A stretch of DNA of 64,000 nucleotides, taken from positions 248,001 through 312,000 of the forward strand of contig NZ_JAQZAO010000008.1 of the NCBI RefSeq assembly GCF_028737315.1, written 5' to 3'. A program made the translations under genes and the position numbers. Shown in pieces: positions 48,438 to 58,580 of the stretch. A model generated the notes under the pieces. It ran no database searches, was not told where the DNA came from, and worked only from the letters and a program-made list of their open reading frames with translations. This DNA is from Actinomycetospora lemnae (GTDB lineage Bacteria; Actinomycetota; Actinomycetes; Mycobacteriales; Pseudonocardiaceae). The first letter of the stretch is position 1. Each line of letters opens with the position of its first letter.

Positions 48438-48923
48438 GTGACCCTGCCGCCCGCACCGCCCTGGACGCCGACGGGCGCCGCCCGCCCCCTCGTCGCCGCC
48501 GGCGCGATCTACCGGGATCCGGAGGGGCGCGTGCTGCTCGTCCACCCGACCTACAAGCCGGGCTGGGACGTGCCGGGCGGGCTCGTCGAGACCGGGGAGG
48601 CGCCGGCGGTGGCGTGCCGCCGGGAGGTCCTCGAGGAGCTGGGGCTCGACCAGGTGCCCGGGCCGCTGCTCACCGTCGACTGGACCGACGTCGGCGGCCA
48701 CGACAAGCTGCTGTTCCTCTTCGACGGCGGGCTGCTCGGCGACGACGAGCACCGCATCGTGCTGCAGGCCGACGAGCTCGACGCGTGGGCGTGGGTGGCG
48801 CCCGACGACCTCGCCGACCACCTGCCCCCGCCGCTCGCCCGGCGCGTGGGCAGCACCGTCGCGGGGGCCACCGGCCCGTACCTCGAGCACGGCCTCCCGG
48901 TCAGGAGCGACGCCGCCGGATGA
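48438..48923 (+). CDS. Nudix hydrolase
   Basis: A 161-residue Nudix protein. The Nudix box is complete: G-x5-E-x7-R-E-x2-E-E-x-G as GLVETGEAPAVACRREVLEE followed by LG. Members hydrolyse nucleoside diphosphates linked to other moieties; the substrate is unknown. GTG at 48438. The 3' end overlaps the convergent thioesterase gene by 23 nt. Confidence 0.88.
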   Translation: MTLPPAPPWTPTGAARPLVAAGAIYRDPEGRVLLVHPTYKPGWDVPGGLVETGEAPAVACRREVLEELGLDQVPGPLLTVDWTDVGGHDKLLFLFDGGLLGDDEHRIVLQADELDAWAWVAPDDLADHLPPPLARRVGSTVAGATGPYLEHGLPVRSDAAG

Positions 48924-49854
48924 GCCCCTCCTGCACGACGGAGGCGACGAGCACCCCGTCGCGCGTGTAGAAGCGGCCCGCCGCCAGGCCCCGGCCGCCG
49001 CCGGCGCTCGGCGACTCCTGCACGTAGAGCAGCCACTCGTCGGCGCGGAACGGGCGGTGGAACCAGACGGCGTGGTCGAGGCTCGCGAGGCTGACCTCAC
49101 CGGACGCCGCACCCCCGACGACGTGCGGGAACACCGCCGCCTCGAGCAGCGTCAGGTCGCTGGCGTAGGTGAGGACGCAGACGTGGAGCAGGCGTCCGCC
49201 CGACGACCCCGGGTCGGGCAGCTCCCCGTCGGCGCGCACCCACACCCGGTTGCGCGGGTCGCGGTCCTCGGTCTCGTCCCACGGCGAGTGGTCGACGTAG
49301 CGGACGTCGAGCGGCCAGGTCAGCGCCCGCCCCGTCGTGGTGAACGCGGGCTCGTCGCGCGGCACCGGCGGCATGTCGCGGCGGGGGAACCCGTCGGGGC
49401 CGGGCGTCTCCGGCATCGGCGCCTGGTGGTCCACGCCCTCCTCGGGGCGCTGGAACGACGCCGACATCGTGAAGATCGTCTCGCCGTGCTGGACGGCGGT
49501 GACGCGGCGGGTGGTGAAGGAGCGCCCGTCGCGGGTGCGGTCCACCTCGTAGACGATCGGGGCGAACGGGTCACCGGGACGCAGGAAGTACCCGTGCAGC
49601 GAGTGCACGCCCCGGTCGTCGTCGACGGTGCGTCCGGCGGCCACCATGGCCTGCCCGGCGACCTGGCCCCCGAAGACGCGCAGCAACGACTCGCGGGGAC
49701 TCCGCCCCCGGAAGATGTCGCGCTCGATGCGCTCGAGGTCGAGCACGTCGTCGACGAGCTCCCGCAGCGCCTGACCCACACCGACCGCCTCTCGTCCCGC
49801 CGACCGGCGGTCATCGTCGCGCACGAGCGGCCCAGCGCGCCCGGGACCCGTCAC
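48901..49854 (-). CDS. tesB: Acyl-CoA thioesterase II (TesB-like)
   Basis: A double hot-dog thioesterase of about 317 residues: LDLERIERDIFRGRSP, then VFGGQVAGQAMVAA, GVHSLHGYFLRPGD, FTMSASFQ, and in the second repeat LTYASDLTLLEAA and SLDHAVWFHRPFRADEWLLY. Asp/Gln/Thr-type catalytic residues of TesB lie in these motifs. It hydrolyses acyl-CoAs to free acids. The start is uncertain: GTG 49854 or GTG 49821. Confidence 0.88.
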   Translation of the reverse strand: MTGPGRAGPLVRDDDRRSAGREAVGVGQALRELVDDVLDLERIERDIFRGRSPRESLLRVFGGQVAGQAMVAAGRTVDDDRGVHSLHGYFLRPGDPFAPIVYEVDRTRDGRSFTTRRVTAVQHGETIFTMSASFQRPEEGVDHQAPMPETPGPDGFPRRDMPPVPRDEPAFTTTGRALTWPLDVRYVDHSPWDETEDRDPRNRVWVRADGELPDPGSSGGRLLHVCVLTYASDLTLLEAAVFPHVVGGAASGEVSLASLDHAVWFHRPFRADEWLLYVQESPSAGGGRGLAAGRFYTRDGVLVASVVQEGLIRRRRS

Positions 49855-50211
49855 CCAGCGCGTCGGTGGCGCTCGCTACATCGAGACCGCCGTTCGGGCT
49901 GCGTGACCGGCGACGCGGTCGCCGCGCGACGCTTCCGCTGGGCCGACAGGGTCTGTACGCCTGCCCGATCGGGTCACGGACCGCGCTGCCGAGCAGCAGA
50001 GCGGGAGCACTCACCGTCACCGAAAACCGACGTCCGGATTCCCTGCGTAACCGCGCCGTGACCCCCTCGTTGACCACCCTGACGTCACTCCCGGGACCCA
50101 TCAAGTCCCGGCGTGGCTCCGCGGGGACACCGTCCGCAGTCCGTGCCCGCAACAGGCGGGCGGACCCATCCGGTCGTCCCGCTCCCCGACACAGCTCTAC
50201 GAGGAGTTCAC
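49855..50211. other. 357-nt intergenic region before the chaplin-like array
   Basis: I see no gene. It holds the first BldN-type promoter of the array (50046-50073), then an unusually long leader of about 130 nt compared with about 60 nt for the other array genes. The last 25 nt contain the shared leader element GCTCCCCGACAC and the ribosome site GAGGAG. Confidence 0.7.
50046..50073 (+). promoter_or_regulatory. BldN-type promoter, array gene 1 (exact consensus)
   Basis: CGTAAC (50046-50051), 16-nt spacer, CGTTGA (50068-50073). This is an exact match to CGTAAC-N16-CGTTGA, the consensus I know for the Streptomyces developmental sigma factor BldN. Confidence 0.75.
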
Positions 50212-50508
50212 GTGATCAAGAAGCTGGGTGTCGTGACGGTCGGCGTGGCCGCCGGCCTCATGGCCGCCGCCCCGTTCGCCTCCGCCACCGAGGGCGGGCA
50301 CCACCACGACGGCGAGCACAAGAGCTCCGGCTCCTGCAACGTCACCGGCGGCTCGGCCGAGGCCAACGGCGGCATCGACGGCGACTCGTTCGCCGGCAAC
50401 CTGCTCGCGCAGGCCCCGGTCGGTGGCGCCAACGCCCTGAACATCGTCTGCAACGACATCCTCAACGACAACGTCAGCGGCAACGCCGTCGACGTCGACG
50501 TCCTCTGA
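50212..50508 (+). CDS. Chaplin-like small secreted protein, array gene 1
   Basis: A 98-residue exported protein. A Sec signal peptide spans 1-25 (VIKKLGVVTVGV...APFASA), then a short His/Glu/Lys-rich segment (TEGGHHHDGEHKSSG), then the shared domain from C42 (CNVTGGSAEANGGIDGDS) to C80 (NIVCNDILN) and a strand-like VDVDVL end. The two cysteines, N-G-G and G-N turns and the GNLLAQAP...NIVCN pattern resemble the chaplin domain (GN-x2-QVP...N-x-CGN), which forms amyloid surface films on aerial hyphae. GTG at 50212 follows GAGGAG. Confidence 0.8.
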   Translation: MIKKLGVVTVGVAAGLMAAAPFASATEGGHHHDGEHKSSGSCNVTGGSAEANGGIDGDSFAGNLLAQAPVGGANALNIVCNDILNDNVSGNAVDVDVL

Positions 50509-50525
50509 GGACTGCACGGCGAGCG

Positions 50526-50553
50526 GACGAGCCGCGCTGACGCGCGGCTCGTC
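50526..50553 (+). terminator. Hairpin after array gene 1
   Basis: GACGAGCCGCGC (50526-50537) and GCGCGGCTCGTC (50542-50553), loop TGAC, 17 nt after the stop. The sequence is unrelated to the GGCCCGG-type hairpins after the later array genes. Confidence 0.75.
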
Positions 50554-50625
50554 CCGGCGGCTCGGGACCCGATCCGTCACCTGCACGACCACTCGAGCAG
50601 TACCGACGATCTCCTTGGGGGAAAC

Positions 50626-50946
50626 ATGTTCAAGAAGGCAGGCGTCGTCACCGTCGCCGTCACCGCGGGCCTGCTCGCGGCCGCGCCCTTCGCCTCGGCC
50701 GGCGAGGCGCACAGCGACGACCACGACCACGACCACAAGAAGAAGAGCCACCACCACGACGACAGCTCGGACTGCAACGTCACCGGTGGCTCCGCCGAGG
50801 CCAACGGCGGCATCAGCGGCGACTCGGTGCTGGGCAACGTCCTCGCCCAGGCGCCGATCGGTGGGGCCAACATCGGCAACATCGTCTGCAACGACATCCT
50901 GAACGACAACCTCAGCGGCAACAGCGTCGCCCTCGACCTGCTCTGA
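50626..50946 (+). CDS. Chaplin-like small secreted protein, array gene 2
   Basis: A 106-residue paralogue: signal peptide 1-25 (MFKKAGVVTVAV...), then the most His/Asp/Lys-rich segment of the array (HSDDHDHDHKKKSHHHDDSS), C50 and C88 with the invariant 37-residue spacing, and G-G-I-S-G-D-S in place of G-G-I-D-G-D-S. The protein ends VALDLL. ATG at 50626 follows TTGGGGGA. It is the only Cys-containing member without a recognisable CGTTG promoter and without the GCTCCCCGACA leader, so it may depend on read-through or another sigma factor. Confidence 0.8.
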   Translation: MFKKAGVVTVAVTAGLLAAAPFASAGEAHSDDHDHDHKKKSHHHDDSSDCNVTGGSAEANGGISGDSVLGNVLAQAPIGGANIGNIVCNDILNDNLSGNSVALDLL

Positions 50947-50986
50947 GGTCCTGACGACGTCCCGCGAGGACGTCCGCCGTACGACG

Positions 50987-51025
50987 ACGAAGGCCCGGCC
51001 ATCCGATCGGTGGCCGGGCCTTCGT
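50987..51025 (+). terminator. Hairpin after array gene 2
   Basis: ACGAAGGCCCGGCCA (50987-51001) and TGGCCGGGCCTTCGT (51011-51025), perfect 15-bp stem; the loop TCCGATCGG is nearly identical to that of the hairpin after gene 4. Confidence 0.85.
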
Positions 51026-51083
51026 GCGTTCCGGGATCGTCCGGCGTGATCCGCCCCGATCGGGCGTAAGCCCCGATGAGGTC

Positions 51084-51111
51084 GTCACCAAACACATCAC
51101 GTCCTCGTTGC
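51084..51111 (+). promoter_or_regulatory. BldN-like promoter, array gene 3
   Basis: GTCAC (51084-51088), 17-nt spacer, CGTTG (51106-51110), within CTCGTTGCTCCGTTCGAG, the variant of the shared 18-nt box. Confidence 0.6.
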
Positions 51112-51177
51112 TCCGTTCGAGGCGGGCTCAGCCATTCGGTCCCGCCGCTGCTCCCCCGACACCTTCCAGGAGTTCTC

Positions 51178-51513
51178 GTGCTGAAGAAGATGGGCGTCGT
51201 CACCGTCGGCGTCTCCGCCGGCCTGCTGGTCGCCGCGCCGTTCGCCTCCGCCCACGAGTCGGGCCACGACTCGGACCACGAGCGCCACGGCGCGGGCTCG
51301 GACTGCAACGTCACCGGCGGCTCGGCCGAGGCCAACGGCGGCATCGACGGCGACTCGTTCGCCGGGAACGTCCTCGCGCAGGCCCCGGTCGGTGGCGCCA
51401 ACGCCCTGAACGTCGTCTGCAACGACATCCTCAACGACAACCTCAGCGGCAACACCGTCGACGTCGAGATCGGCGGCGGCCTCCTGCCCGAGCTGCCCGC
51501 GCCGCCGGTGTAG
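51178..51513 (+). CDS. Chaplin-like small secreted protein, array gene 3
   Basis: A 111-residue paralogue: signal peptide 1-25, variable segment HESGHDSDHERHGAGSD, core domain from C43 to C81, then a C-terminal extension VDVEIGGGLLPELPAPPV that is Pro/Leu-rich. The core reads SFAGNVLAQAPVGGANALNV before VCNDILN, closest to gene 1. GTG at 51178 follows CCAGGAGTTC; the leader has the shared CTCCCCCGACAC element. Monocistronic, with its own promoter and terminator. Confidence 0.82.
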   Translation: MLKKMGVVTVGVSAGLLVAAPFASAHESGHDSDHERHGAGSDCNVTGGSAEANGGIDGDSFAGNVLAQAPVGGANALNVVCNDILNDNLSGNTVDVEIGGGLLPELPAPPV

Positions 51514-51528
51514 GTCCTGACGGACGCC

Positions 51529-51566
51529 ACGACGGCCCGGCCACCGCACGGTGGCCGGGCCGTCGT
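51529..51566 (+). terminator. Hairpin after array gene 3
   Basis: Perfect 17-bp stem ACGACGGCCCGGCCACC (51529-51545) and GGTGGCCGGGCCGTCGT (51550-51566), loop GCAC. Confidence 0.85.
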
Positions 51567-51624
51567 GCTGTCGAGGGCCGATCCGGCGCGCTGTCCCTCC
51601 TTCGGGTGTCGCGACGCGGCCGGT

Positions 51625-51662
51625 CGTGCCGCCGGCGTCGCGCTCTCGTTGAGCCGTCCGAG
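51625..51662 (+). promoter_or_regulatory. BldN-like promoter, array gene 4
   Basis: CGTGCC (51625-51630), 16-nt spacer, CGTTGA (51647-51652), within the conserved 18-nt box CTCGTTGAGCCGTCCGAG (51645-51662). Confidence 0.65.
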
Positions 51663-51728
51663 GCGTGCCCGGGTGCTCATCATCCGCTCGGCCCACGCCC
51701 GCTCCCCGACAGACACTCAGGAGTTCGC

Positions 51729-52127
51729 ATGCTGAAGAAGATGGGCGTCGTCACCGTCGGCGTCACCGCGGGCCTGCTGGCCGCCGCGCCGTTCGCCTCC
51801 GCCACCGAGGGCGGGCACCACCACGACGGCGAGCACAAGAGCTCCGGCTCCTGCAACGTCACCGGCGGCTCGGCCGAGGCCAACGGCGGCATCGACGGCG
51901 ACTCGTTCCTGGGCAACACCCTCGTGCAGGCCCCGATCGGCGGCGCCAACCTGGCCAACATCGTCTGCAACGACATCCTCAACGACAACCTCAGCGGCAA
52001 CACCGTCGAGGTGAGCGTCCTCAGCGCGGACGAGGAGGAGACCGAGGAGCCCGGCGGCGTCGACATCGATCCCGAGGACCTCAACGGCAACGGGGTGCCG
52101 GACGACGAGGAGATCACCGCCACCTGA
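51729..52127 (+). CDS. Chaplin-like small secreted protein, array gene 4, with acidic tail
   Basis: A 132-residue paralogue. Signal peptide 1-25; the segment TEGGHHHDGEHKSSGS is identical to gene 1; core from C42 to C80 (SFLGNTLVQAPIGGANLANI before VCNDILN). A unique acidic C-terminal extension follows: DEEETEEPGG and then DIDPEDLNGNGVPDDEE, whose D-x-N-x-N-G spacing resembles a calcium-binding loop. ATG at 51729 after CAGGAGTTC. Identity to gene 1 in the N-terminal half points to duplication or gene conversion. Confidence 0.82.
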   Translation: MLKKMGVVTVGVTAGLLAAAPFASATEGGHHHDGEHKSSGSCNVTGGSAEANGGIDGDSFLGNTLVQAPIGGANLANIVCNDILNDNLSGNTVEVSVLSADEEETEEPGGVDIDPEDLNGNGVPDDEEITAT

Positions 52128-52148
52128 GCATCCCCTCCCGCAGGACCC

Positions 52149-52185
52149 CGAAGGCCCGGTCATCCGATCGGTGGCCGGGCCTTCG
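52149..52185 (+). terminator. Hairpin after array gene 4
   Basis: CGAAGGCCCGGTCA (52149-52162) and TGGCCGGGCCTTCG (52172-52185), one G-T pair; the TCCGATCGG loop repeats that after gene 2. Confidence 0.85.
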
Positions 52186-52274
52186 TCTGTCCGGGGTACG
52201 GCCTGAATTCCTTCGCCACCGCAGGTTTGCGCAGGGTGTCGTGTCACTCGTTCGGGGATCACCCGTTACCTGAT

Positions 52275-52312
52275 CGTTGCACGGTCCGCCTGACCTCGTT
52301 GTCCCTCCCGAG
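52275..52312 (+). promoter_or_regulatory. BldN-like promoter, array gene 5 (divergent)
   Basis: CGTTGC (52275-52280), 16-nt spacer, CGTTGT (52297-52302), within CTCGTTGTCCCTCCCGAG (52295-52312), the least conserved copy of the box. Confidence 0.5.
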
Positions 52313-52375
52313 GCGCGGTGCCGTGCGCATCCGGTGCGCGGGTCGCGTCCGCTCCCCGACGAACAAGGAGTCGAC

Positions 52376-52714
52376 ATGCTGAAGAAGCTGGGCGTCGTCA
52401 CCGTCGGCGTCTCCGCCGGCCTGCTGGTCGCCGCACCGTTCGCGTCCGCGAGCGAGTCGAGCCACGAGTCCGACCACCACGAGAGCCACGAGTCGAGCCA
52501 CGAGTCGAGCTCGGACTGCAACGTCACCGGCGGCTCCGCCGAGGCCAACGGCGGCATCGACGGCGACTCGTTCCTGGGCAACGCCCTCGTGCAGGCCCCG
52601 GTCGGCGGCAGCAACCTGGGCAACGTCGTCTGCAACGACATCCTCAACGGGAACCTCAGCGGCAACAGCGTCGACGTCGACCTCGGCGGCGGCCTGCCTT
52701 CCCTCCCCGCCTAG
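52376..52714 (+). CDS. Chaplin-like small secreted protein, array gene 5
   Basis: A 112-residue paralogue: signal peptide 1-25, a Ser/Glu/His repeat segment (SSHESDHHESHESSHESSSD) with S-H-E-S units, core from C48 to C86 (SFLGNALVQAPVGGSNLGNV before VCNDILN), and a short Gly/Leu/Pro tail (GGGLPSLPA) like gene 3. ATG at 52376 follows AAGGAGTCGAC. The GCTCCCCGACGAACA leader element is present. Confidence 0.82.
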   Translation: MLKKLGVVTVGVSAGLLVAAPFASASESSHESDHHESHESSHESSSDCNVTGGSAEANGGIDGDSFLGNALVQAPVGGSNLGNVVCNDILNGNLSGNSVDVDLGGGLPSLPA

Positions 52715-52733
52715 GAGCGCGCAAGCGCACCAG

Positions 52734-52770
52734 CGACGGCCCGGCCACCCACGGGGTGGCCGGGTCGTCG
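52734..52770 (+). terminator. Hairpin after array gene 5
   Basis: CGACGGCCCGGCCACCC (52734-52750) and GGGTGGCCGGGTCGTCG (52754-52770), one G-T pair, 3-nt loop. Confidence 0.85.
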
Positions 52771-52843
52771 TGTGTCGGCGTGGTTCATCGGCGCCGTGTT
52801 CCCCGGCCTCCATCCCACGATCGGGGGCATCGGGGCGGAAACC

Positions 52844-52881
52844 GGTAACACCGGCATGACCACCTCGTTGAGCCGTCCGAG
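52844..52881 (+). promoter_or_regulatory. BldN-type promoter, array gene 6
   Basis: GGTAAC (52844-52849), 16-nt spacer, CGTTGA (52866-52871), within the 18-nt box CTCGTTGAGCCGTCCGAG (52864-52881). One mismatch to the BldN consensus. Confidence 0.72.
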
Positions 52882-52945
52882 CGTGGGGGCGCACTCCCCA
52901 GCCATCCAGCCCACGCCGCTCCCCGACACAACCTCTGGAGTTCTC

Positions 52946-53326
52946 GTGCTGAAGAAGCTCAGCGTCGTCACCGTCGGCGTCTCGGCGGGCCTGCTGGTCG
53001 CCGCCCCGTTCGCGTCCGCCCACGAGTCGGGCCACCACGGTCACCACAAGCACCACGACGCCAGCGCCGACTGCAACGTCACCGGCGGCTCGGCCGAGGC
53101 CAACGGCGGCATCGACGGCGACTCGTTCCTGGGCAACGCCCTCGTGCAGGCCCCGATCGGCGGCGCCAACCTGGCCAACATCGTCTGCAACGACATCCTC
53201 AACGGCAACCTCAGCGGCAACGTCGTCGACGTGAACGTGCTGAGCCCCGAGGTCGCGGCGCCCGTCGAGGAGGAGGAAGGGGAGGCCCCGGTCGCGAACC
53301 CGCTCGAGGGCGCTCCGACCGCCTGA
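52946..53326 (+). CDS. Chaplin-like small secreted protein, array gene 6
   Basis: A 126-residue paralogue: signal peptide 1-25 (VLKKLSVVTVGV...), His-rich segment HESGHHGHHKHHDASAD, core from C43 to C81 (SFLGNALVQAPIGGANLANI before VCNDILN), and an acidic Val/Glu/Pro tail (APVEEEEGEAPVANPLEGAP). GTG at 52946 after TGGAGTTCTC. The core is almost identical to gene 4, while the tails differ completely. Confidence 0.82.
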   Translation: MLKKLSVVTVGVSAGLLVAAPFASAHESGHHGHHKHHDASADCNVTGGSAEANGGIDGDSFLGNALVQAPIGGANLANIVCNDILNGNLSGNVVDVNVLSPEVAAPVEEEEGEAPVANPLEGAPTA

Positions 53327-53342
53327 GCAACATCTGGTGCTC

Positions 53343-53381
53343 ACGAAGGGCCCGGTCACCACGCGGTGGCCGGGCCTTCGT
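53343..53381 (+). terminator. Hairpin after array gene 6
   Basis: ACGAAGGGCCCGGTCACC (53343-53360) and GGTGGCCGGGCCTTCGT (53365-53381), with one bulged G and one G-T pair. Confidence 0.8.
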
Positions 53382-53432
53382 CTGCTCCGGGCCCGAGGTT
53401 GATCCCCCGATCGGGTCGATCTCACCCACGCG

Positions 53433-53470
53433 GATCACGAAGACATCACGGCCTCGTTGAGCCGTCCGAG
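53433..53470 (+). promoter_or_regulatory. BldN-like promoter, array gene 7
   Basis: GATCAC (53433-53438), 16-nt spacer, CGTTGA (53455-53460), within the 18-nt box CTCGTTGAGCCGTCCGAG (53453-53470), identical to those of genes 4 and 6. Confidence 0.65.
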
Positions 53471-53536
53471 ACCACGGCGCCGCGCTCCTCCACCGTCCGG
53501 CGCCGTTCCCTTCCCCCGAGCCACACAGGAGTCCCC

Positions 53537-53833
53537 GTGCTGAAGAAGCTGGGCGTCGTCACCGTCGGCGTCACCGCCGGCCTGCTCGCCGCCGCGCCGT
53601 TCGCGTCGGCCGAGTCGCACATCGACGAGAACAACAACGTCACGTCCGAGGGCAGCAACATCGGCGTCGACACGGGCAACCGCATCGGCCAGGGCAACGG
53701 CCAGGGCAACACGTTCAACGGCGTGGAGGTGCCCGGCCTGCCGGACGCGCCGACCCTGCCCGCGGTGCCGCCGCTCTCCGACTTCCTGCCCGAGCTGCCG
53801 AGCCAGTTCGAGCTCCCGGGCATCCCCGCCTGA
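53537..53833 (+). CDS. Divergent small secreted protein, array gene 7 (no cysteines)
   Basis: A 98-residue protein with the same signal peptide (VLKKLGVVTVGV...APFASA) and promoter as its neighbours, but the mature part is different: no cysteine, no His segment, an Asn/Gly-rich stretch (DENNNVTSEGSNIGVDTGNR, then IGQGNGQGNTFNGVEV) and a Pro/Leu-rich tail (PALPxLP-like, ending FELPGIPA). The G-N-x-x-G-Q-G-N pattern is reminiscent of rodlin or curli-type amyloid repeats. GTG at 53537 after CAGGAGTCCC. Confidence 0.75.
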   Translation: MLKKLGVVTVGVTAGLLAAAPFASAESHIDENNNVTSEGSNIGVDTGNRIGQGNGQGNTFNGVEVPGLPDAPTLPAVPPLSDFLPELPSQFELPGIPA

Positions 53834-53852
53834 GGCGCGCTCCGCACGACGA

Positions 53853-53886
53853 CGGGCCCGGTCCACCGCTCGGTGGGCCGGGCCCG
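53853..53886. terminator. Hairpin after array gene 7
   Basis: CGGGCCCGGTCCACCG (53853-53868) and CGGTGGGCCGGGCCCG (53871-53886), one G-T pair. It separates the array from the convergent MFS gene. Confidence 0.85.
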
Positions 53887-53903
53887 TTCGTGTGTCCGGG
53901 GTG

Positions 53904-55640
53904 TCAGCGCCCGACCGTGCCCGCGGTGCCAGCGAAGTGCCGTTGCTGACGATCAGTGTCCGTATCGGTACTTCGATCACCGCGCCCGCCGGTTGCCACG
54001 GCGCCGTCGGGCAGGACGACGACCGGGCAGGGACCGTCCTCGAAGAGCGCGCGGTCGGCGCTCGGCGAGGTGAGCGCGGCCAGCGCCCCGCCCCGCGGGC
54101 GCCCGACGACGACGGCGCGGGCGTGGTGGCGCCGGGCCACCGCGACGAGTGCGCCGCCGACGCCGTCGTGGGCGACGACGGGCGCGAGGGTCTCGGCGGT
54201 CACCGTCGCGTCCCGACCGACGGCCTCCCGCGCGGCGCCCAGGGACCGCTCGAGGCCGGGCCCGGTGTCGGTGTCGGCGGCGGCCGCGGCGTCCACCACG
54301 GCCGATTCCGGGACGTGCACGACGACCAGCGGCGCCTCGAGCAGCGTCGCGAGCCGGCCGCCCGCCGCCGCGACCGCCGGCGCGTGCGGCGACCCGTCGA
54401 CGGCCACGAGGACCGGCCGTGCCGACTCCCCCGTCTCCTCGACGGTCGACTCCCCCACCGTCAGCTCGCCGGTCTCCACGCGCCGCAGCAGGCGGTGGGC
54501 GGTGGCGAGCACCAGCGCGCCGACGGCGACGACCACCGCGCCGACCCAGAACGGGGTGTTCGGCAGGAACGCGTCGGCGAGGAGGCCGGCGATCCACGGG
54601 GCGAGCCCGCCGCCCAGGAAGCGCACGAAGCTGTAGGACGCCGAGGCCACGGGGCGCTCGACCGGGGCCACGGACATGACGGCCTGGGTGACCAACGTGT
54701 TGTTGAGGCCGATCATCGCGCCGGCGACGATCACCGCCCCGATGACGACGCCCGGGGTGTCGTTCCAGGCGGCGATGACGAGCAGGTCCACCGCGAGGAG
54801 CCCGAGGACGAAGTAGAGGACGCGCACGGTGCCGAAGCGCCGCTCGAGGGCCGGGGCGACGAACACCGCGAAGATCGCGACGAGCACGCCCCAGGCGGTG
54901 AAGACGCCGCCGAGGCCGAGCTCGGAGAGCCCGCCCATCGAGTACGGCGAGTACGCGAGCAGCGTGAAGAAGCCCCAGTTGTAGGCGAAGGCGGTCAGCG
55001 CGATCGTCGCGAGGCTGCGGTGGCGCAGCGCCTTGAGCGGGTCGAGCAGCCCGATCGTCCGCGCCGGCTTCGGGGTCTTGTCGAGCAGCACCAGCGTCGC
55101 GATCAGCGCGATCGCCATGAGGACGGCGACGCCGAAGAACGGCGCCCGCCAGCTCACCGAGCCGAGCAGTCCGCCGACGAGCGGACCGAGCGCGATGCCG
55201 ACCCCGAGCGCCGTCTCGTAGAGGATGATTGCGCCGGCGAAACCGCCGCTCGCGGAGGCGACGATGACCGCGAGCGAGGTCGCGATGAACAGGGCGTTGC
55301 CGAGGCCCCAACCGGCACGGAAGCCCACGATCTCGCCGATCGAACCGGACGCCCCGGCGAGGGCGGCGAAGACGACGATGATCGTCAGGCCGGTCAGCAG
55401 CGTCGCCTTGGCACCGATGCGGCTGGAGACCCAGCCGGTGACGAGCATGGCGACCGCGGTGATGAGCAGGTAGCTCGTGAACAGCAGCGAGACCTGCGCG
55501 GGCGTGGCCTCGAGCTGCTCGGCGAGCGCGGGCAGGATCGGGTCGACCAGGCCGATCCCCATGAAGCTGATGACGCAGGCGAAGGCGACGGCCCAGACGG
55601 CCTTCGGTTGGCGGAACGGGCTGTCGGTGGACGTGCTCAC
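53904..55640 (-). CDS. MFS transporter fused to a C-terminal UspA domain
   Basis: A 578-residue fusion. Residues 1-395 are a 12-helix major facilitator (VISFMGIGLVDPILPALAEQ; TGWVSSRIGAKATLLTGLTI), of the drug-efflux type. Residues about 415-545 are a universal stress protein domain (RPVLVAVDGSPHAPAVAAAG ... VGRPRGGALAALTSPSADRA ... CPVVVLP). The G-x2-G-x9-G-S/T ATP-binding motif of UspA is only partly kept. GTG at 55640 overlaps the MarR stop, so the regulator and transporter are co-expressed. Confidence 0.88.
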   Translation of the reverse strand: MSTSTDSPFRQPKAVWAVAFACVISFMGIGLVDPILPALAEQLEATPAQVSLLFTSYLLITAVAMLVTGWVSSRIGAKATLLTGLTIIVVFAALAGASGSIGEIVGFRAGWGLGNALFIATSLAVIVASASGGFAGAIILYETALGVGIALGPLVGGLLGSVSWRAPFFGVAVLMAIALIATLVLLDKTPKPARTIGLLDPLKALRHRSLATIALTAFAYNWGFFTLLAYSPYSMGGLSELGLGGVFTAWGVLVAIFAVFVAPALERRFGTVRVLYFVLGLLAVDLLVIAAWNDTPGVVIGAVIVAGAMIGLNNTLVTQAVMSVAPVERPVASASYSFVRFLGGGLAPWIAGLLADAFLPNTPFWVGAVVVAVGALVLATAHRLLRRVETGELTVGESTVEETGESARPVLVAVDGSPHAPAVAAAGGRLATLLEAPLVVVHVPESAVVDAAAAADTDTGPGLERSLGAAREAVGRDATVTAETLAPVVAHDGVGGALVAVARRHHARAVVVGRPRGGALAALTSPSADRALFEDGPCPVVVLPDGAVATGGRGDRSTDTDTDRQQRHFAGTAGTVGR

Positions 55641-56086
55641 GACGCTCCTCGCGAGGGGTCGACGGGGGTCTGGGTCAGGCGTGACAGGGCACCGGCCGCG
55701 GCGTCGACGGCGGCGCGGTCCTCGGGGCCGAGCTGGTCGAGGAGGTCCGCCAGCCGCGACGCACGGCGGGTGCGCCGGGCGTGGAGGACCTCGCGGCCCG
55801 CGTCGGTCAACGTCACGACCACGGCGCGCCGGTCGCTCGGGTCGTCGCCGCGCGTGGCGAGGCCGTCGCGTTCCAGGCGCGTGACCAGCGCGGTCATGCT
55901 CGGCTGCGTGACGCCCTCGCGGACGGCGAGGTCGGACAGGCGCTGGGGCCCGTCGCGGTCGAGCGTCGCGAGTGTCGACGCCGTCGTCAGGCTGAGGTCA
56001 CGGCTCGCGGTGGAGCGCAGGACCCACGCCGCGAAGGCGTCGAGCGCGGCGGCGGTGGCCAGGCGCGCGTCGGTCGGTGCGGTCAC
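55637..56086 (-). CDS. MarR-family transcriptional regulator
   Basis: A 149-residue winged-helix repressor: LTTASTLATLDRDGPQRLSD, VTQPSMTALVTRLERDGLAT and the wing DDPSDRRAVVVTLTDAG. It is the first gene of a two-gene operon with the MFS-UspA transporter, the usual drug-responsive arrangement. GTG at 56086. An A+T-richer stretch just upstream probably holds its operator. Confidence 0.9.
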   Translation of the reverse strand: MTAPTDARLATAAALDAFAAWVLRSTASRDLSLTTASTLATLDRDGPQRLSDLAVREGVTQPSMTALVTRLERDGLATRGDDPSDRRAVVVTLTDAGREVLHARRTRRASRLADLLDQLGPEDRAAVDAAAGALSRLTQTPVDPSRGAS

Positions 56087-56092
56087 CGAACC

Positions 56093-56112
56093 GTTGTATC
56101 ACCTAACTATGT
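56093..56112. promoter_or_regulatory. Candidate MarR operator/promoter stretch
   Basis: GTTGTATCACCTAACTATG, a rare A+T-rich patch 7-26 nt upstream of the marR GTG. On the minus strand it reads TAGTTAGGTGATAC; the symmetry is imperfect. Confidence 0.35.
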
Positions 56113-56154
56113 TCTTCGCCGTGATGGCGACCGTCCCTCGAGGGCGCGCGGGGA

Positions 56155-56847
56155 TCAGGAGCCGAACGAGAGCAGCGACGGCGAGGACGACGACGCGTCG
56201 CCGAACGAGAGCAGCGACGTCGCGCCCGAGACGGTGGTGCCGAGGCCGCCGACGACGCCGCCGAGCAGGCCGCCATCGCGTCCACCACCCGAGCCCTCCG
56301 AGCCCTCCGAGCCCTCCGAACCGCCCGACCCACCGGGGTCACCCGAGCCACCGGACCCGCCCGAGCCGCCGGAACCGCCGCCGGCACCCCCGCCCGATGC
56401 CCCGGAACCCTGCGAGCCGCCGCCCGAACCGGACCCGCCACCCGAGGCGCGGATCGGGGTGTCGCCGTCGCGGGCGGCGCTCGCCGTACGCGCGGAGCCG
56501 TCGGTGCGCGTCGCCCGACGGGCGGGCGCGGCGTCGGCGTCGGCCCGCCCACCGGTGCGGGTGCCGACGGTGCCGGCGGGCCGGCCGAGGCCGACGGGGT
56601 CGCCGGTGGACGCGAGGTCGAGCACCTGGACCGGGGCCGGCGGCACACCCGGCGCGAGGGGCAGCGAGGCCGCGGGAGCCGTGCCGCCGCCGCCCGGCGC
56701 GGGCGGTGCCAGGGGCGCGTCGGAGCTGACGGGGCTCATCACCACGGAGCCGATCCCGATCGCGCCGACGGTGGCGACCAGCGGGAGCGCGCCGAGCGCG
56801 ACCCGGGCGCGCGTCGCGGACGACGCCCCCATCTGGTGCCTGCCCAT
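56155..56847 (-). CDS. Gly/Ser-rich exported protein under a BldN-type promoter
   Basis: A 230-residue protein of no known family. It begins MGRHQMGASSATRARVALGA, followed by an export/anchor helix (about 15-35). The middle is Pro/Ala/Arg-rich; about residues 128-195 are a low-complexity Gly/Ser region with G-G-S and E-G-S repeats, and the end holds the repeat SLLSFG twice. The composition suits a surface or matrix protein. A perfect CGTAAC-N16-CGTTGA promoter lies about 85 nt upstream. ATG at 56847. Confidence 0.65.
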   Translation of the reverse strand: MGRHQMGASSATRARVALGALPLVATVGAIGIGSVVMSPVSSDAPLAPPAPGGGGTAPAASLPLAPGVPPAPVQVLDLASTGDPVGLGRPAGTVGTRTGGRADADAAPARRATRTDGSARTASAARDGDTPIRASGGGSGSGGGSQGSGASGGGAGGGSGGSGGSGGSGDPGGSGGSEGSEGSEGSGGGRDGGLLGGVVGGLGTTVSGATSLLSFGDASSSSPSLLSFGS

Positions 56848-56929
56848 GTCTGGCTCTCCGTCCGTTCGTCCGGCCAGCTCGTCCGGTAGGGAGCGCACCA
56901 CCGATCGGGTGACTGCTCCTCCGGAACGC

Positions 56930-56957
56930 TCAACGGCCGTCACGGCCGGAGGTTACG
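56930..56957 (-). promoter_or_regulatory. BldN-type promoter of the Gly-rich protein (exact consensus)
   Basis: On the minus strand, CGTAAC (56957-56952), 16-nt spacer, CGTTGA (56935-56930), followed by GC as in the array promoters (CGTTGAGC). Confidence 0.75.
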
Positions 56958-57095
56958 GACGCGGGCCGTCCGGGCTTGAGTCCATCGATGAGGTGAACCC
57001 GGGTCCTCACCCCACCCGGCGGCACCGGTTGGCCCCGGAGGCGGTCCGGCCACAGACTGTGCGCCCGGCGGAGCGTCGACGAGGAGGTCACCACC

Positions 57096-58580
57096 GTGAA
57101 GCAGCTGTCGGGCCTGGACTCGGTGTTCCTGGACGCGGAGGACGACCACCAGTTCACCCACGTCAGCCAGCTGCTGATCCTCGAGCGGCCGGACCCCGAC
57201 TTCGAGCCCTACCCCGCCTGGCGCCGCCAGCTCGCCGACCGCATCCACCAGCTCGAGCCGCTACGCCGCCGGCTGGTGGAGGTGCCCTTCGGGCTCGACC
57301 ACCCGTACTGGATCGCCGACCCGGACTTCGACCTCGACTTCCACGTCCGCCACAGCGCCGTCCCGCCGCCCGGCGGTGACGGCGAGCTCGACGAGCTGGT
57401 CGGCCGCCTCGTCGCCGCGCCGATGGACCGCGACCACCCGCTGTGGGTCTCGCACGTCATCGAGGGCCTCGACGGCGACCGCTTCGCGATCCTCACGATG
57501 ATCCACCACAGCGCCGTCGACGGGGCCGCGGGCGCGGACCTGCTCGAGCTCATGCTCGAGGACTCCCCCGACGCCGGTCGCCCCGCCGAGGCCGGACGGT
57601 GGCGCGCCGAGAGCCCGCCGTCGACGGCCGAGGTGCTCGCCCGCGCCGCGGTCAACGGCGTCCGGCGCCCCGCCCGCGGGCTGCTGCTCGCGGCCCGTGC
57701 AGGACAGAAGCTGGCGCGGGCCTCGCGCAGCCCGGCGGCCATCGACCTGGCCGACAAGGTCCGCGGCACGCTGCGCGGGCCGCTGGGGTCGGTGCTCAAC
57801 GCCGGGCGCGCCCGCGACGACGACGGCCGCCTGCCCCGGCTGCCCCCGCTCGTGTCGCCGCGGACCCCGTTCAACCACCCGATCAGCCGCTACCGCCGCT
57901 TCGCGCACCGCTCGCTGCCGCTGGCCGAGGTGAAGTCCGTCGGGAAGCAGGCCGGGGCGACGATCAACGACGTCGTCGTCGCGATCTGCGGCGGCGGGCT
58001 GCGGCACTGGCTGACCGAGCGTGGCGAGCTCCCCGACCGACCCTTGACCGCCCTCATCCCCGTCTCGCTGCGCAGCGGTGACGAGGAGGAGCGCTGGACC
58101 AACCGCGTCTCGGGCACCATCGCCGCCCTGCCGACCGACCTCGACGGCCCCCTCGAGCGCCTGCGCGGCGCGCACGAGGCACTGGACCTGGCCAAGCAGG
58201 TGTTCAAGGCGCTGCCCGGCGAGCTCGCGCCGGACGTCGCCGGGCTCGGGACGCCGCTGGCGACGACGGCGGTCAGCCGAGCGGTCACGCGCTGGTCGAC
58301 CGCGGCGGCGGCGCCGTTCAACCTCGTCGTCTCCAACGTCCCGGGGCCGACCGACCCGCTCTACGTCGGTCCCGCGCCCATGCGCCACTACGTCCCGGTC
58401 TCCGCGATCGCCGACGGTGTCGGGCTCAACATCACCGTGCAGAGCTACGTCGACCAGCTCGACATCGGGCTGCTCGCCTGCGCCGAGCTGGTGCCCGACC
58501 TCGCCGACCTCGCCGACGCGGTCGTCGCGGAGTTCGACCTCCTGCGCGACGCCGTCCGGTCCGCGGAGGAACCCGCGTGA
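57096..58580 (+). CDS. Wax ester synthase / diacylglycerol acyltransferase (WS/DGAT)
   Basis: A 494-residue acyltransferase. The catalytic HHxxxDG motif is HHSAVDG (H137-H138, D142), with the N-terminal LSGLDSVFLDAEDDHQFTHV and the C-terminal NLVVSNVPGPTDPLYVGPAP typical of mycobacterial Tgs proteins. It esterifies diacylglycerol or fatty alcohols with acyl-CoA for storage lipid. GTG at 57096 follows GAGGAGG. It is coupled to the next gene by a GTGA overlap. Confidence 0.92.
   Translation: MKQLSGLDSVFLDAEDDHQFTHVSQLLILERPDPDFEPYPAWRRQLADRIHQLEPLRRRLVEVPFGLDHPYWIADPDFDLDFHVRHSAVPPPGGDGELDELVGRLVAAPMDRDHPLWVSHVIEGLDGDRFAILTMIHHSAVDGAAGADLLELMLEDSPDAGRPAEAGRWRAESPPSTAEVLARAAVNGVRRPARGLLLAARAGQKLARASRSPAAIDLADKVRGTLRGPLGSVLNAGRARDDDGRLPRLPPLVSPRTPFNHPISRYRRFAHRSLPLAEVKSVGKQAGATINDVVVAICGGGLRHWLTERGELPDRPLTALIPVSLRSGDEEERWTNRVSGTIAALPTDLDGPLERLRGAHEALDLAKQVFKALPGELAPDVAGLGTPLATTAVSRAVTRWSTAAAAPFNLVVSNVPGPTDPLYVGPAPMRHYVPVSAIADGVGLNITVQSYVDQLDIGLLACAELVPDLADLADAVVAEFDLLRDAVRSAEEPA

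Follow-up and report, generated by a model that had tools for sequence, protein, structure and literature searches.

A tandem array of small, probably secreted proteins behind BldN-type promoters in Actinomycetospora: candidates for the chaplins' place

The window analyzed here, a 64,000-nucleotide (nt) stretch of the Actinomycetospora lemnae genome (contig NZ_JAQZAO010000008.1, positions 248,001 to 312,000), carries an array of seven tandem genes for small, probably exported proteins, six of which are preceded by a sequence of the type recognized by the developmental sigma factor BldN, two of these at only 9 of 12 matching positions. Judged by sequence, the proteins are not chaplins. We consider the chances somewhat better than even that the array encodes lineage-specific surface proteins that are controlled by BldN and stand in the chaplins' place in Actinomycetospora. 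Taken separately, control of the array by BldN appears quite probable, and a surface or sheath role of the proteins has an even chance or slightly more. The combination of a developmental-type switch with no chaplin gene found suggests that the source organism, a soil actinomycete, builds its aerial coat from a protein other than chaplins. BldN-controlled coat proteins of sporulating actinomycetes are already known; the novelty would lie in finding, in their position, an unnamed family to which no homology is detected.

Reading-frame analysis bears out the seven-gene array of the original prediction (all on the plus strand, 50212-53833, proteins of 98-132 residues; Table 1), whose outer limit of 53886 took in a hairpin visible by eye 3′ of gene 7. 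Its description of six such proteins with a shared signal peptide and two cysteines 37 residues apart was correct, and the core motif it quoted, GN-x-L-x-Q-A-P-x-GG-x-N-x2-N-x-VCN, is present; the cysteine spacing holds in all six Cys-bearing proteins, and the gene 7 protein has no cysteine. A GGAG lies closely 5′ of six of the seven starts, gene 2 having GGGGGA instead. The signal peptide, x-x-K-K...APFASA, is near-identical in all seven proteins, each of which displays, by eye, the features of Sec signals (a lysine pair, a hydrophobic stretch and APFASA). In six of the seven it is followed by a His-rich, acidic, variable tail and then by a core with exactly two cysteines. Variation falls on the tail and conservation on the core; the tails of 31 family sequences average 23% His and 25% Asp plus Glu.

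According to published work, BldN recognizes CGTAAC-N16-CGTTGA (PMC2375139) and in Streptomyces activates the chaplin and rodlin genes and bldM (PMC4255298, PMC4125116), and rsbN of S. venezuelae has a BldN-dependent promoter of its own (PMC4255298). The 6.06-Mb source genome holds two exact copies of this sequence, both in the window. Sites with at most one mismatch number ten, against none for the reversed pattern, and eight of the ten lie within about 310 nt 5′ of a plausible gene start as judged by eye: array genes 1 and 6, a neighboring gene whose product begins MGRHQ (the MGRHQ gene), an rsbN-like and a bldM-like gene, and genes at L128, L130 and L131 (loci, genomes, genera and contigs carry our own labels, with the letters L, G, g and C). 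For the remaining sites, in L010 and L132, no plausible downstream gene was noticed by eye. Within the array, the motifs of genes 3-7 sit about 100 nt upstream. Gene 2 has no credible site upstream; its best, at 9/12, falls inside gene 1.

The same promoter type recurs across the genus, where the 18 Actinomycetospora genomes sum to 166 sites, compared with 36 for the reversed pattern. Fifteen exact sites are among the matches listed; at least six precede genes of the window family (L057, L139, L144 and L148, read directly, and those of G014 and G015, assigned by their coordinates relative to family matches), at least six precede MGRHQ genes (L058, L133, L135, L136, L146 and L147), two precede permease-like genes (L138 and L152), and one lies in G016. 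Positions were counted over distinct upstreams of Actinomycetospora relatives and of the source genome's own paralogues, with a 16-nt spacer and with L001-L006 (window copies), L011, L029 and L042 onward set aside. Outside the window, a site of at least 10/12 is found in all ten upstreams of the IKK type (shuffled rate 0.011), in 11 of 19 of the core LKK/MKK type (0.0076), in none of seven of the FKK type and none of six Cys-less ones, and in that of the one truncated gene, shuffled rates throughout being 0.007-0.011. With the window genes included, the counts become 11/11, 13/23, 0/8, 0/7 and 1/1, respectively; if a 17-nt spacer is allowed, one of the eight FKK (gene 2-type) upstreams, L012, reaches 11/12. 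Among 33 selected CGTTG sites, 22 lie at −91 to −110, eight at −163 to −171 and three elsewhere, and a T precedes CGTTG in all 33, although this position was unscored; the boxes themselves served for site selection, and the array copies share ancestry, so these rows are not independent.

Both ingredients of a BldN regulon, a consensus promoter and a BldN-family sigma factor, are present in the source genome. The family model TIGR02952 has a single match there (C25:362455-362970, 188 bits, E 4e-55), and one such gene occurs in each of 16 of the 18 genus genomes, including all 15 near-complete ones. A frame encoding up to 443 residues follows it directly and has a DUF5667 domain (E 6.3e-11), a domain also carried by RsbN of Streptomyces; an 11/12 motif begins 72 nt before the ATG chosen for this rsbN-like gene. 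A response regulator on C27 is 52% identical to its best matches in four genomes of genus g68, and an 11/12 motif lies 305 nt 5′ of its start; judging by their sequence, we take these best matches to be BldM. The BldM sequence, the chaplins and the rodlin-like genes of g68 lead us to regard this genus as Streptomyces, and its best-match loci carry the exact motif 152-153 nt 5′ of the start in three of four cases and none at L202.

What, then, are the array proteins by descent? Searches of Pfam and NCBIfam returned no credible match for any of the seven; specifically, none matches the chaplin family PF03777 at E ≤ 10, and the whole source genome contains no PF03777 match at E ≤ 1. Comparison of profiles likewise revealed no similarity to chaplins or rodlins beyond shuffled controls. 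Against 35 chaplin domains, drawn from the loci of the family- and class-level PF03777 searches, the window family reached a probability of 5.0, inside its 60 column-shuffled controls (maximum 42.6); divergent genus members reached 19.3 (controls up to 82.4), all groups pooled 2.2 (up to 13.1), the L051 group 1.1 (up to 1.6) and the FRK group, introduced below, 1.2 with a score of 13.1 (25 controls, scores up to 13.9). Against three sequences that are presumably rodlins, so named from their sequence and from their position beside chaplin genes, the window family reached 0.3, within controls (0.2-0.6 across the rodlin comparisons). Membership of the chaplins by sequence and of the rodlins was rejected on these results. 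The original description of the proteins as chaplin-like thus fails for their sequence and gains support for their putative role, the latter from promoters of the sigma-BldN type, which drive the chaplin, rodlin and bldM genes in Streptomyces; the motif resemblance on which it drew is that of a short pattern and does not demonstrate a relationship. Of the two outcomes that it named as refuting, the first, a lack of profile similarity to chaplins, was observed. A bacteriocin reading was also rejected, the YxzE matches being very weak (E 0.014 and 9.6); matches to the VPA0510 family were weak, too (E 0.012 and 0.029, and 0.0034 for a relative), all of these lying far under cut-off. A sequence search of the PDB with query A4 gave a single, meaningless match (E 3.3).

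A second kind of array bears on the question. Tandem genes for small secreted Cys-pair proteins of an FRKTVLTT type occur in seven genus genomes (G002, G005, G006, G008, G009, G010 and G013; L191-L197). The window family and the FRK type are linked by a profile probability of 94 (score 41.3; maximum of 25 shuffles, 23.7), and the two FRK-type proteins tested have no Pfam match. G009 lacks a window-type match, the weak window-family matches of G006 and G010 are of the FRK type, and G002, G005, G008 and G013 additionally carry divergent window-type genes. In all seven arrays the VSTFRKT gene has a BldN-type site of 10/12 or 11/12 at −114 to −124, so the promoter accompanies this kind of protein at two unlike arrays; one FRK-associated 28-mer is shared without change by at least five genomes (G005, G006, G009, G010 and G013). 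As for chaplins proper, 13 of the 18 genus genomes, the source included, have no PF03777 match at E ≤ 0.01, and G002, G003, G009, G010 and G012 have one or two each. G010 combines an FRK-type array with a best match that reads as a genuine chaplin, so the two can occur together. It is conceivable, though at a little short of an even chance, that the BldN-BldM-RsbN switch has been conserved while the coat has not, the LKK/IKK and FRK families doing the chaplins' task in Actinomycetospora; a single developmental programme would then, in different lineages, turn on coat proteins that are unrelated and may self-assemble.

PF03777 matches at E ≤ 1e-10 occur in 12 of the 148 genomes of the class search, ten of them in g68. 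Before the chaplin genes of these presumed Streptomyces genomes (L161-L190), CGTxxC-N16-CGTTxx is found at −76 to −89 in 11 of 34 upstreams; at −83 to −89 four more carry CA(C/G)AAC-N16-CGTTGA and one has a 17-nt spacer, and the other 18 have no such site at that position (start codons were chosen by rule, without shuffles). Among the Pseudonocardiaceae, 141 of 297 genomes exceed the PF03777 cut-off, mostly weakly among the matches listed. Weak matches lie inside frames of about 1000 residues (e.g., L070, L071 and L073-L079), perhaps of a large repetitive surface protein.

The window family itself appears nearly confined to Actinomycetospora. In a scan of an 84,980-species genome collection, which possibly omits the source genome itself, 15 relatives were confirmed among 90 candidate stretches, all in Actinomycetospora records. 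At E ≤ 1e-3, matches occur in 17 of the 18 genus genomes (two of them weak, in G006 and G010), in 38 of 297 Pseudonocardiaceae genomes spread over 4 of 46 genera, and at class level in one of 394 genomes, namely the source genome. Outside the genus one match is strong over the core (G066, L042, E 2.2e-16), and most others cover chiefly the signal peptide and tail. The original view of an expanded, unnamed family outside Streptomyces is thus supported by this spread and by the lack of a Pfam or NCBIfam family, and our literature searches, which covered few subscription papers, turned up no report of it among the titles listed. The source genome has three additional paralogues, on C24, C25 and C27; the last (L011 4155-4640, minus strand) encodes 161 residues, in which the unit NNTNVQ(A/V)PINQLG(V/I)L occurs twice and a linker is very rich in His and Asp. 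In several relatives, too, the Cys-less type stands after Cys-bearing genes. The ratios of nonsynonymous to synonymous substitution (dN/dS) against presumed A. straminea counterparts, with genes 3 and 4 unpaired, are 0.61 for gene 1, 0.23 for gene 2, 0.53 for gene 5, 0.78 for gene 6 and 0.13, the lowest of the five pairs, for gene 7. These values, together with the relatives across the genus, show that the array is not a chance reading. A 120-nt run is identical, in register, between genes 1 and 4, which suggests recent conversion. The match falls about 600 bases or less from the end of a contig in 10 of the 15 confirmed loci (L012-L016, L018, L020-L022 and L026), as though draft assemblies broke at the tandem copies, so the numbers of genes counted per array are minima.

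Several observations weigh against a BldN-controlled coat. With up to three mismatches allowed, the window holds 34 sites against 34.65 expected, that is, no enrichment; weight is therefore placed on sites with no mismatch or one and on conservation of position, and for genes 5 and 7, at 9/12, only position and conservation speak. The array promoters are also partly copies of each other, not independent rows, and no upstream of a Cys-less gene reaches 10/12 (0/7). The BldN-family score falls below the curated cut-off of 206 bits, as it does in all 16 genus genomes matched, and the motif of the bldM-like gene stands upstream at twice the distance seen in the presumed Streptomyces genomes. Of the chaplin upstreams, 23 of 34 do not fit CGTxxC-N16-CGTTxx at the position given, in counts made without a shuffle control, and the two chaplins of other Pseudonocardiaceae (L067 and L068) have no such site. 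By grand average of hydropathy (GRAVY), the 35 chaplin domains average 0.43 and 31 family cores 0.23, with very hydrophilic tails at −2.09 (in this set two cores start at an extra tail cysteine, and gene 4 is the sole window gene). Because G010 combines a chaplin with an FRK-type array, simple replacement fails genus-wide. Finally, AlphaFold2, given the mature gene 5 protein and 21 relatives, predicted no fold (predicted local distance difference test score 49, predicted template modeling score 0.13), an outcome that neither supports nor refutes an assembling protein.

Could the promoters instead serve another extracytoplasmic function (ECF) sigma factor with much the same specificity, so that their association with aerial development misleads? 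The source genome has 43 sigma-70 region-2 matches, and ECF −10 boxes often contain CGT; however, the CGTAAC −35 box with its 16-nt spacer is an exact match to the BldN site as published, the motif is present at 11/12 before the bldM-like and rsbN-like genes, and we regard such a substitution as unlikely. It also seems quite unlikely that the array encodes genuine chaplins that have diverged so far that their homology escapes profile comparison. Small pieces are indeed held in common (GN-x-L-x-QAP and N-x-x-CN), both groups have short IKK/LKK signal peptides, part of the chaplin genes have the same promoter type, and some cores, such as GDQVPVGLNVC in L051, look bridging. Yet the probabilities of the window family and of the L051 and FRK groups all fall within controls, the cysteine spacing differs, and PF03777 does find clear chaplins in G010 and in two other Pseudonocardiaceae genomes.

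Alternatively, the proteins might act on metals or on other organisms. That they are secreted metal-binding or buffering proteins, whose His/Asp/Glu tails bind metal (zinc, copper or nickel) at the surface of the cell, is in keeping with the composition of the tails and with very weak matches, far under cut-off, to ZrgA (E 0.073) and UreE-like (E 0.11) models, but is rendered quite unlikely by promoters of developmental type and by a tail that varies while the core is conserved. A further reading, in which the proteins diversify for recognition, adhesion or competition, at the surface or after release, and are expressed developmentally without forming a sheath, would account for the tandem expansion, the variable tails and C-termini, the identical block of genes 1 and 4 and dN/dS values of up to 0.78; the constrained core and the cysteines invariant in six proteins make it very unlikely, as does the fact that no immunity or modification gene was noticed in the reading frames of 48500-57400, where no search was aimed at such genes.

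If the array does encode a BldN-controlled coat, how might it work? Genes 1 and 3-7 would be transcribed by BldN as aerial hyphae form, with gene 2 probably dependent on gene 1 or another promoter, and BldN may also serve the rsbN-like and bldM-like genes, as it does in Streptomyces. The products would leave the cell via Sec as short mature proteins, each with a His/acidic tail and a Gly/Asn-rich Cys-pair core. Outside, the cores might assemble, possibly after cysteine oxidation, on emerging hyphae or spores and alter their wettability, the variable tails and C-termini perhaps tuning the mixture. Assembly, cysteine pairing and any effect of metal on the His tail are guesses.

Table 1. Coordinates of the array genes, BldN-type promoter sequences, hairpins and the neighboring MGRHQ gene in the window
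Feature	Position	Strand	Details
BldN-type promoter, gene 1	50046..50073	+	CGTAAC-N16-CGTTGA, 12/12
Gene 1 (IKK type)	50212..50508	+	98 residues, GTG start, Cys-37-Cys core
Hairpin between genes 1 and 2	50525..50554	+	Perfect, 13 nt, measured
Gene 2 (FKK type)	50626..50946	+	106 residues, ATG start
BldN-type promoter, gene 3	51083..51111	+	10/12, 17-nt spacer
Gene 3	51178..51513	+	111 residues, GTG start
Hairpin 3′ of gene 3	51523..51572	+	24 nt, 92% complementary, terminator-like, measured
BldN-type promoter, gene 4	51625..51652	+	10/12
Gene 4	51729..52127	+	132 residues, ATG start
BldN-type promoter, gene 5	52275..52302	+	9/12, weak
Gene 5	52376..52714	+	112 residues, ATG start
Hairpin 3′ of gene 5	52734..52770	+	17 nt, 94% complementary, measured
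BldN-type promoter, gene 6	52844..52871	+	11/12
Gene 6	52946..53326	+	126 residues, GTG start
BldN-type promoter, gene 7	53433..53460	+	9/12, weak
Gene 7 (Cys-less, GN-rich)	53537..53833	+	98 residues, GTG start
MGRHQ gene (Ser/Gly-rich)	56155..56847	−	About 230 residues, start chosen by comparison with relatives
Second exact BldN-type site, before MGRHQ gene	56930..56957	−	12/12

Besides the hairpins measured in the array (Table 1), further ones are seen by eye 3′ of genes 2, 4, 6 and 7. The MGRHQ gene is probably a neighbor co-regulated with the array. A 243-residue version of its product has no match in NCBIfam (E ≤ 0.01) or Pfam (E ≤ 0.1), and its arrangement behind an exact motif is repeated in five of the loci from other genus genomes named above (L133, L135, L136, L146 and L147). 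Two loci of the source genome have secreted-looking products behind 11/12 BldN-type motifs, both on the minus strand: a 162-residue protein ending SVLSFG in L130 (G000:C8:55500-58500), to whose motif CGTAAC...CCGTTGG 28-mers recurring in many genus genomes are akin, and a 281-residue protein in L131 (G000:C25:288500-291500) with a GDSGS motif, protease-like by eye and with no NCBIfam match. In L138 (G006) and L152 (G003), an exact motif stands before a gene that by eye is YrbE/MlaE permease-like. Two other genera of the Pseudonocardiaceae, g5 and g27, have small secreted proteins with LKK signals (L043-L055). The g5 group lies weakly above controls in comparison with chaplins (probability 45.8, control maximum 4.2), as do the two proteins of L053 in comparison with rodlins (probability 27.6; score 24.7, control maximum 16.6). 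Four g5 proteins and one g27 protein were tested and have no credible Pfam match, and the L043-L055 upstreams that were read contain no clear BldN-type motif.

A review (PMC4255298) reports obvious rodlins from streptomycetes alone and genes of chaplin type from a few further genera. A set of non-chaplin proteins under BldN control would be a direct candidate for the means by which non-Streptomyces actinomycetes break through the air-water interface, and the array might offer a new source of surface proteins that self-assemble.

Among known systems, the chaplins (ChpA-H, PF03777) share several features with the array: a small paralogous set exported by Sec (by prediction, for the array), a core that is rich in Gly and Asn and contains a Cys pair and, for some of the chaplin genes fetched, BldN-type promoters with a 16-nt spacer. 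The array differs in its His/acidic tail, its less hydrophobic core, the lack of a PF03777 match or of profile similarity above shuffled controls, and its cysteines, which lie 37 residues apart rather than the 17 of a typical chaplin domain; the array proteins do not have the chaplin core CGN-x-V-x-V-x-G-x-LNPAFGN-x-C with that spacing. Rodlins (RdlA/RdlB of Streptomyces) are likewise secreted, with an LKK signal peptide and two cysteines, and are BldN targets in Streptomyces, as the BldN-type promoters suggest for the array, but the three sequences compared have no profile similarity to the window family beyond controls. The FRK-type arrays (L191-L197, and L051) differ in their FRKTVLTT signal peptide and their cysteine spacing and, like the window array, consist of tandem genes for small secreted proteins with a His-rich tail and a Cys pair, built on a shared N-x-C-x-x-LN-x-N core.

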